NCBI GenBank assembly: GCA_002771015.1 | Contig: PCUO01000009.1 | Coordinates: forward strand, 31,206 to 49,348 | Source of the DNA: Candidatus Yonathbacteria bacterium CG17_big_fil_post_rev_8_21_14_2_50_43_9 | Lineage (GTDB): Bacteria > Patescibacteriota > Minisyncoccia > Phycocordibacterales > UBA1550 | Length of the DNA stretch: 18,143 nt | Direction of reading: 5' to 3' | Shown: positions 2,241 to 18,088 of the stretch, piece by piece | Numbering within the stretch: the first letter of the stretch is position 1 | How the letters are laid out: the number at the start of each line of letters is the position of its first letter | Translations under genes and position numbers: made by a program | Notes under the pieces: generated by a model | What the model saw: the letters and a program-made list of their open reading frames with translations, nothing else | Database searches by the model: none | Told to the model about the DNA's origin: nothing

Positions 2241-2253
2241 TTACCAGAGGATA

Positions 2254-2284
2254 TCGGTCACGAATCACTAAGTATTTTGCTTCG
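2254..2284 (-). repeat. Isolated copy of the end module of the tRNA-linked repeat
   Basis: The minus strand of this 31-nt stretch (CGAAGCAAAATACTTAGTGA, then TTCGTGACCGA) matches 18041-18071 on the plus strand with a single mismatch by eye. That second site is the distal end of the element after tRNA-Cys. A more divergent version lies at 2354-2376. The copy here has no attached tRNA 3' sequence. Confidence 0.75.
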
Positions 2285-2353
2285 AGTTGCTCCAAATTCA
2301 AATATTGACGAACAGAGCTCTAGACTAGCGTGTGGTCACAAAAAGGACAAAAG

Positions 2354-2490
2354 GCTCTCGGTCACGGGTTACTAGGTGTGCTCGTGTGAGTTACACACTG
2401 TGCGCGCTAAGTACCCGCTACCCCGTCTCACTGTCGCTTCGCGACATGTTCCGGCTTTCGATTCTCCACACAAAGCAAGCAGTTGCTTTG
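2354..2490 (-). repeat. tRNA-linked repeat element, copy next to tRNA-Ala
   Basis: Read on the minus strand away from tRNA-Ala, the order is as follows. First, hairpin CAAAGCAA-CTGC-TTGCTTTG (2471-2490). Then an inverted copy of the tRNA T-arm, GGAGAATCGAA (2457-2467). Then hairpin GTCGC-GAA-GCGAC (2433-2445), then AGTGAGACGGGGTAGCG, and finally the end module CTAGTAACCCGTGACCGAGAGC (2354-2375). The same order with closely similar sequence occurs after tRNA-Cys at 17941-18074. No open reading frame fits. Within the wider gap 2150-2543, apart from this element, the promoter at 2212 and the copy at 2254, I see nothing else. Confidence 0.75.
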
Positions 2491-2554
2491 CCTCGGGTCC
2501 ACAAATTAAAAACACCAGCTTTGAAGCTGGTGTTTTTAATTTGTGGACCCGAGG
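2491..2554. repeat. Perfect 31-bp inverted repeat containing the tRNA-Ala terminator
   Basis: Arms 2491-2521 and 2524-2554 are exact reverse complements with a 2-nt centre. The right arm includes the last 11 nt of tRNA-Ala, so the left arm is an inverted copy of the tRNA 3' end plus its flank. The core 2508-2537 (AAAAACACCAGCTT, 2-nt loop, AAGCTGGTGTTTTT) is a good bidirectional Rho-independent terminator for tRNA-Ala. The extra arm length is not needed for termination and comes from the inverted duplication. Confidence 0.9.
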
Positions 2555-2617
2555 AGAATCGAACTCCTTACCTCCGGAGTGCAAAACCGGCGCTCTAGCC
2601 AGGTGAGCTACGGGCCC
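2544..2617 (-). tRNA. tRNA-Ala(TGC)
   Basis: Minus strand cloverleaf with acceptor GGGCCCG/CGGGTCC. It contains the G3-U70 wobble pair that identifies tRNA-Ala. The D arm is GCTC/GAGC, the anticodon loop TTTGCAC (anticodon TGC), the T arm AGGAG-TTCGATT-CTCCT, and A73. The anticodon stem has a U-U mismatch at 31-39. CCA is not encoded, since CAA follows. Length is 74 nt. A second copy of its first 21 nt lies 114 bp upstream. Confidence 0.95.
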
Positions 2618-17831: not shown

Positions 17832-17903
17832 GGCGTGGTAGCCAAGTGGTAAGGCAGTGGTTTGCAAAACCTCTACACGCGAGTTCGATTCTCGCCCACG
17901 CCT
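17832..17903 (+). tRNA. tRNA-Cys(GCA)
   Basis: Acceptor GGCGTGG/CCACGCC, D arm GCC/GGC, anticodon loop TTGCAAA (anticodon GCA), T arm GCGAG-TTCGATT-CTCGC, and U73 as expected for tRNA-Cys. There is a U-U mismatch in the anticodon stem. CCA is not encoded. 72 nt. Confidence 0.95.
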
Positions 17904-18088
17904 CAAAGAAAATTCTGTTAAGGATTTTCTTGGTGTGGGAGCAGGCAAACTGCTTTGCCTGCGTCGAGAATCGAAGGGCGGAGCATGTCGCTTGCGACAG
18001 CGAGCCGGGGTCGCGAACACTTTGTAGTTTTCAAGCGAAGCGAAGAAAAATACTTAGTGATTCGTGACCGAGAGCGCCCACGCCTCAA
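17893..18088 (+). repeat. tRNA-linked repeat element, copy next to tRNA-Cys, with direct-repeat ends
   Basis: Bounded by an exact 14-bp direct repeat, CGCCCACGCCTCAA (17893-17906 and 18075-18088), which is the 3' end of tRNA-Cys. Inside, in order: terminator-like stem AAGAAAAT...ATTTTCTT (17905-17932); GGTGTGGG, an imperfect inverted acceptor copy; hairpin GCAGGCAAA-CTGC-TTTGCCTGC (17941-17962); an exact inverted copy of the tRNA T-arm CGAGAATCGAA (17965-17975); hairpin GTCGC-TT-GCGAC; AGCGAGCCGGGGTCGCG; and the end module TTAGTGATTCGTGACCGAGAGC. It shares this layout and much sequence with 2354-2490. It has no coding capacity. Confidence 0.8.

Follow-up and report, generated by a model that had tools for sequence, protein, structure and literature searches.

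The closest described system is RtT (RttR; Rfam RF00391), the tyrT repeats of Escherichia coli, whose RNA is released from the tRNA precursor. RtT copies lie 3′ of a tRNA gene, occur in tandem and carry a second tRNA 3′ end (here S2). The Rfam consensus has an inverted T-stem copy (here S′) paired with S2 around a core; in the E. coli tyrV repeats the partners in the Rfam RtT model are S′ GGGGAAGGAT and S2 ATCCTTCCCC. A second precedent is provided by short tandem inversion duplications of the order S-S′-S, which arise by template switching at quasi-palindromes. A third is the tDNA island: such islands are described as leaving a restored tRNA gene and a displaced 3′ fragment, with the crossover on the T-loop side, and the Islander filters given there ask for an integrase gene inside the island and a length over 2 kb (PMC4383910).

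The window analyzed here is the whole 18,143-nt stretch of DNA from a Candidatus Yonathbacteria genome (the source genome). An Rfam search of the window returned tRNAs only. Behind its tRNA-Ala and tRNA-Cys genes lie elements of ∼180 bp, devoid of an integrase gene, with the plan S1 (the tRNA 3′ end), hairpin, S′ (inverted copy), structured core of ∼95 nt and S2 (direct copy). Their parts are the following.

2543..2617, minus strand: tRNA-Ala(tgc), host gene (ARAGORN; Rfam)
2544..2561, minus strand: S1 of the Ala element, C56 to A73 of the tRNA 3′ end (read from the sequence; junction defined by the family)
2507..2541, minus strand: Ala spacer, a terminator-like hairpin continuous with the S1/S′ palindrome (repeat analysis)
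2491..2506, minus strand: Ala S′, acceptor half, inverted copy (repeat analysis)
2468..2490, minus strand: Ala small hairpin with CTGC loop, conserved helix 1 (sequence and family structure)
2457..2467, minus strand: Ala S′, T-arm half, GGAGAATCGAA (sequence)
2361..2456, minus strand: Ala core with two conserved helical regions (sequence, alignment with Cys, family structure, covariance model)
2345..2360, minus strand: Ala S2, a decayed direct copy of the tRNA-Ala 3′ end (by eye; weak)
about 2242..2323, minus strand: second, partial tail behind the Ala element (covariance model, 15.9 bits)
17832..17904, plus strand: tRNA-Cys(gca), host gene (ARAGORN; Rfam)
17886..17903, plus strand: S1 of the Cys element (sequence, direct repeat)
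17904..17931, plus strand: Cys spacer hairpin (sequence)
17932..17939, plus strand: Cys S′, acceptor half, GGTGTGGG, with one G.U (sequence)
17940..17964, plus strand: Cys small hairpin with CTGC loop (sequence and family structure)
17965..17975, plus strand: Cys S′, T-arm half, CGAGAATCGAA (sequence)
17976..18068, plus strand: Cys core (sequence, family structure, covariance model)
18069..18088, plus strand: Cys S2, a direct copy of the tRNA-Cys 3′ end, with 14 nt exact at 18075-18088 (direct repeat)

A preliminary description of this DNA had reported that tRNA-Ala carries an inverted copy of its own 3′ end split by a small hairpin, and this holds: the 31-nt arms at 2491-2521 and 2524-2554 are 100% complementary with 2 nt between them, and beyond the 23-nt hairpin insert, which sits in or beside the outer T stem near the T-stem/acceptor junction, the inverted copy resumes as GGAGAATCGAA. 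The core that follows is ∼96 nt long. The Cys site was said to have the same plan, and the two sites do align along the tail. At its end the Cys tail repeats the tRNA 3′ end in direct orientation (CGCCCACGCCTCAA is found at 17893-17906 and again at 18075-18088), and the counterpart of this copy has decayed in Ala; this copy and the second, partial Ala tail were both absent from the preliminary description. A 23-nt stretch of the Cys tail is matched exactly in the partial Ala tail (2254-2276), a match seen in 0 of 200 shuffles. The Cys and Ala elements fold more stably than shuffled sequences (z-scores of -5.8 and -2.3, respectively). Upstream of tRNA-Ala, positions 2712-2732 reproduce exactly 21 nt from the 5′ part of the gene (a direct repeat of 2598-2618), and 2661-2673 is a 13-nt inverted piece of its anticodon arm.

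The statement that no described family has this layout was too strong. RtT shares with the window's family the inverted T-stem copy and the second tRNA end; it differs in having a core sequence and helices of its own, and in a repeat that begins near A58/A59 rather than at C56. The RF00391 model gave no match in the window at gathering, nor did it appear among the listed matches (E≤5) of four element loci. Conversely, the covariance model of the window's family (R1, see below) reached at best 8.3 bits (E 0.024) on E. coli tyrT, which was rejected as a match. RtT works like the window's element but, by these tests, belongs to a different sequence family. In E. coli the RF00391 model reaches its cut-off at six Lys genes, and three Arg genes that stay below the Rfam threshold have an RtT-like core with arms near those of their own tRNA (1-2 mismatches of 9). 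At lysQ and lysV the direct repeat spans 49-54 nt, terminator included, and S′ is poor (3 mismatches of 9). In the lys and arg operons of strain MG1655 the arms of the RtT-type copies track the host tRNA, and none of these copies carries an annotation of its own in the regions read (L255, L256 and L258). With tDNA islands the window's elements share an intact tRNA gene and a displaced 3′ fragment in direct orientation, but their length of ∼180 bp, the absence of an integrase gene, the inverted target copy and the presence of one core family on many tRNA kinds set them apart, and they do not pass the Islander filters. The direct-inverted-direct order with hairpins at the turns is that of short tandem inversion duplications, from which the elements differ in two ways: the second turn is always occupied by a conserved core, and the break falls at fixed positions of the tRNA. 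Searches of the open-access literature brought up no account of such elements among the papers listed. We conclude that the finding in the window is real, that it is much larger than first described, and that it is an element of the RtT kind with a different core.

When the Cys element was used as a blastn query, 95 of 99 genomes had matches at E≤1, a cut-off loose enough to let in matches by chance. The covariance model R1 was built from 18 aligned elements. Because both window sites are among them, and score 158 and 119.5 bits, independent support comes from the many other loci. The preliminary description had proposed a small element family on tRNA 3′ ends, with further copies to be sought by such a model, and they were found: R1 gave 10 matches in the source genome (E≤1), where 6 of the 35 tRNA genes have a match directly 3′, and 9-34 matches per genome in all 16 genomes of the genus (E≤0.1). 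Across the phylum, 28 of 239 sampled genomes were positive at E≤1e-6 with strict filters, the source genome included. With an exact 22-nt core pattern and one genome per species, 99 stretches were found, 80 of them listed; the informative names among these 80 were Patescibacteria, mainly Parcubacteria lineages (Yonath-, Kaiser-, Campbell-, Taylor-, Zambryski-, Lloyd-, Nomura- and Wolfebacteria), together with one Gracilibacteria and one 3.5-kb contig labelled Cytophagales. The latter (LNEN01000015.1) has an R1 match and is likely mis-binned. R1 was then run on 77 of the 80 listed loci (L099, L120 and L128 were left out) and on five viral contigs picked up by the short core pattern; it confirmed none of the viral loci, and a viral association was discarded. 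Separately, a second core family with the same arms was observed at tRNA-Gly(tcc) and tRNA-Gly(ccc) of the source genome (L217 and L219) and at two loci of genome G013 (L244 and L249), with GGRA.GGGGTCG... after S′ and GTGAGATAGCGAAGCGTCTC at its end before S2. A possible third core type (CCGNAGGCTC...) stands between S′ and the second tRNA end at tRNA-Asn (L243) and tRNA-Leu(gag) (L248) of G013.

The position of the matches was scored for 167 of them, namely all 122 from the pattern-locus search and 45 of 53 from another R1 search; the eight left out were three window rows, two of L085 (whose tRNA side is off the contig) and three weak ones (L078/L079). A tRNA or tmRNA gene lay within 400 nt on the 5′ side of 146 of the 167, always on the same strand and never on the opposite one, and the hosts comprised 18 tRNA amino-acid kinds plus tmRNA. 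The remaining 21 included seven within 400 nt of a stretch end and one after an Rfam-detected tmRNA; the other 13 are unexplained, with a tRNA out of reach and no contig end as an excuse, and these count against the tRNA-targeting reading. At 20 further loci from more distant Patescibacteria, a same-strand tRNA was found within ∼150 nt upstream in every case.

The arms follow the host gene. S′ scored 10.3 on average with its own tRNA end and 6.3 with other tRNAs (n = 130; permutation maximum 7.0), and was best or tied with its own in 54 of 130, which bears out the earlier claim that the inverted part tracks the host tRNA. For S2 the means were 10.5 and 5.5 (n = 114; permutation maximum 6.1), with 51 of 114 best or tied. 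A model-free scan for S′ was positive at 6 of 30 tRNAs in genome G000 and 13 of 35 in G013 (upstream control, 2 and 1), and at 3 of 42 in E. coli, all Lys (upstream, 0); tyrV was missed (0 of 1) because its repeat begins later. A direct-repeat scan gave 3 of 30, 3 of 35 and 11 of 43, respectively, against upstream controls of 0, 0 and 9, the E. coli control being weak because tRNA genes are repeated there.

Two target sites could be told apart, the T-loop (S2 from C56) and the acceptor (S2 from near the last acceptor pair). The core end was not found in 22 of 163 elements; by the rules used, the other 141 fell into 45 T-loop, 33 acceptor and 63 unclassified elements, and S′ was located in 36 and 16 of the first two classes. 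S′ extends at least one tracked nucleotide beyond the junction (15 of 16 at the acceptor site). Successive overrun nucleotides matched in 15, 10 and 1 of 16 acceptor elements, in which these nucleotides vary, and in 34, 36 and then 0 of 36 T-loop elements. A two-nucleotide shift of S′ beyond the T-loop junction was considered and rejected, since the nucleotides to the left are nearly always TT, so that an invariant AA belonging to the core could give the same picture; two variants occur there, of which L106 tracks and L135 does not. Of 45 direct repeats, 19 stop no more than 3 nt from the tRNA 3′ end, seven extend into the trailer (by up to 35 nt) and 19 are shorter.

Over 9 nt, 37 of 58 S′ and 28 of 58 S2 were perfect, and 3 of 39 S′ changes recurred in S2 (58 of 113 elements used). 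With so few shared changes the match looks set at insertion rather than maintained by pairing, and selection on S′/S2 pairing was ruled out by this independent decay. The inverted part had been thought to be either copied from the tRNA or co-evolving with it; copying is favored and co-evolution disfavored, since S′ and S2 each diverge from S1 on their own. The suggestion of a folding decoy for tRNA precursors fell away, as it gained no positive evidence and the pairing is not maintained.

Comparison of occupied with empty loci revealed precise insertion at two tRNA genes of two genomes of the genus. G013 carries an R1-type insert at tRNA-Ser(gga), where G000 is empty, and the flanks are homologous on both sides (93% over 821 nt and 87% over 778 nt). 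At tRNA-Val(gac), G000 is occupied and G013 empty, and homology extends over the downstream flank (80% over 832 nt); here synteny comes from one side only, as the G013 contig ends soon after the other side, and the element has a divergent core without an R1 match and a decayed S2. At both loci the native trailer or terminator follows S2 (at Ser(gga), the terminator continues past it). It follows that S2 is the displaced native end and S1 part of the insert. Five more tRNAs (Ala, Leu-caa, Trp, Gly-gcc and Arg-gcg) differ between the two genomes in occupancy or target site, by locus comparison, synteny aside. The insertion nature of the elements is well supported.

We then compared 93 arm-free cores, chosen by distance and start motif. 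Cores from the same genome on different tRNAs had a similarity of 0.328 versus 0.275 in permutations (119 pairs; 1 of 500 permutations as high), a modest genome signal that could partly reflect shared base composition or descent. Cores on the same tRNA kind in different genomes gave 0.278 versus 0.275 (345 pairs; 190 of 500). For example, the elements behind Cys, Gly(ccc) and Tyr of one genome are 82-84% identical and nearly the same in their 3′ half, yet each has arms that belong to its own tRNA. A second genome has a T-loop element and an acceptor-site element with this half in common. Since cores are alike by genome and not by tRNA kind, the arms look remade at insertion.

The core is a folded structure. 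RNAalifold on the 18 aligned elements predicted 35 pairs, 23 of them with double changes, or 29 of 42 with the T′-S2 helix included. With this helix, the share of cells that pair is 91.8%, compared with 78.8% for shuffles and 32-39% when the structure is slid, a slide control that is somewhat favorable because the structure was derived from the tested alignment; for the T′-S2 helix alone the share is 70.8%. In 16 of the 18 sequences one pair stays G.U, a sign that the folded strand is the tRNA-sense one.

The analyses establish a preference in target and strand, a core with conserved structure, S′ and S2 that match the host, precise insertion at two loci that have an empty counterpart, close similarity between cores on different tRNAs of one genome, and separate decay of S′ and S2. 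Judging from the sequences, we lean with modest confidence towards the elements being non-autonomous, tRNA-targeting insertion elements whose arms are copied from the target, the matching arms presumably being made anew at each insertion. A protein-free element would settle on the 3′ end of a tRNA or tmRNA gene, its point of entry being either the T55/C56 step of the T-loop or the acceptor end. Insertion would displace the native 3′ end downstream as S2, and the insert would supply a working replacement, S1, so that the tRNA survives. The S-S′-S order with hairpins at both turns may be the footprint of two template switches. The growing strand would fold back at the trailer hairpin, copy the end of the tRNA up to T54, be joined to the core and then continue from C56. 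We consider a host DNA polymerase the likelier copier, because most genomes of the genus lack a detectable reverse transcriptase.

Alternatively, the elements could be very small islands whose attachment site matches the tRNA and which a tyrosine recombinase mobilizes in trans (Xer of the host, or the enzyme of a visiting element), with S′ and S2 forming a folded attachment site somewhat as in integron attC. Integron attC sites have R boxes (GTTRRRY) with extrahelical bases and are used by the integron integrase; they are likened here for the folded inverted repeat only. A tyrosine recombinase is encoded in 31 of 32 genomes, and the T-loop crossover, the direct repeat reaching the tRNA 3′ end, the restored gene and the displaced fragment are marks of tDNA islands (PMC4383910). 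Yet exactly one such gene is present in 24 of the 32, among them G001 with its 34 R1 matches; attachment-site lineages would be expected to group by tRNA kind, which the cores do not, and an integrase leaves the inverted target copy unexplained. We therefore regard site-specific integration as unlikely.

Quite unlikely, too, is a functional RNA beside tRNA genes (in processing, as a decoy or as a regulator) whose S′ and S2 evolve to match by base pairing. The strong covariation within the core, the strand shared with the tRNA and the annotation of an E. coli RtT copy as the small RNA RttR agree with it; S′ and S2, however, do not co-change, occupancy varies between two genomes of one genus, and few tRNA genes of the source genome (the 6 of 35 above) have an R1 match.

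Retro-insertion, in which the tRNA transcript would self-prime at the terminator hairpin, a reverse transcriptase copy the tRNA end back and the cDNA insert, appears improbable. It would account for the Ala S′ continuing unbroken from the terminator palindrome and for the tRNA-sense strand looking folded, but several elements have no terminator before S′, and reverse transcriptase (RVT_1) was detected in only 3 of 16 genus genomes, being absent from the copy-rich G001, G012 and G015. In genomes from outside the genus, RVT_1 occurs more often where the element is present, in 15 of 27 element-positive versus 8 of 31 element-negative ones (Fisher p = 0.03, uncorrected; 11 of the 31, G110-G120, were inferred negative from the strict-filter search), which leaves room for an RNA route. 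The Y1 transposase, present in 14 of 16 genus genomes (absent from G003 and G015), had no such association elsewhere (12 of 27 versus 11 of 31, p = 0.59), and a partnership of the IS200/IS605 or REP type was rejected. None of the three enzymes clearly indicates a dedicated one.

Finally, once inserted, S′ and S2 might be made uniform with S1 through gene conversion and repair templated by the hairpin. Such homogenization would suit the many perfect arms noted above but is very improbable, as alone it creates neither S′ at a new locus nor the switch between T-loop and acceptor sites within a genome.

The copying of arms from the target may extend further. Tentatively, and with more doubt than belief, we suggest that the Patescibacteria elements and E. 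coli RtT could represent a general bacterial class that is protein-free, moves among unrelated tRNA genes and re-arms itself at each insertion by inverted and direct target copying through DNA-templated template switching, without an enzyme of its own. With this family beside them, the tyrT repeats of E. coli turn from an isolated curiosity into one case of a wider element type, and the R1 model separates such tails from other small RNA genes beside tRNAs. The family offers many dated examples of how a sequence acquires target-matching arms and, if the arms are copied at insertion, it would represent a form of mobility that does without any dedicated enzyme belonging to the element.
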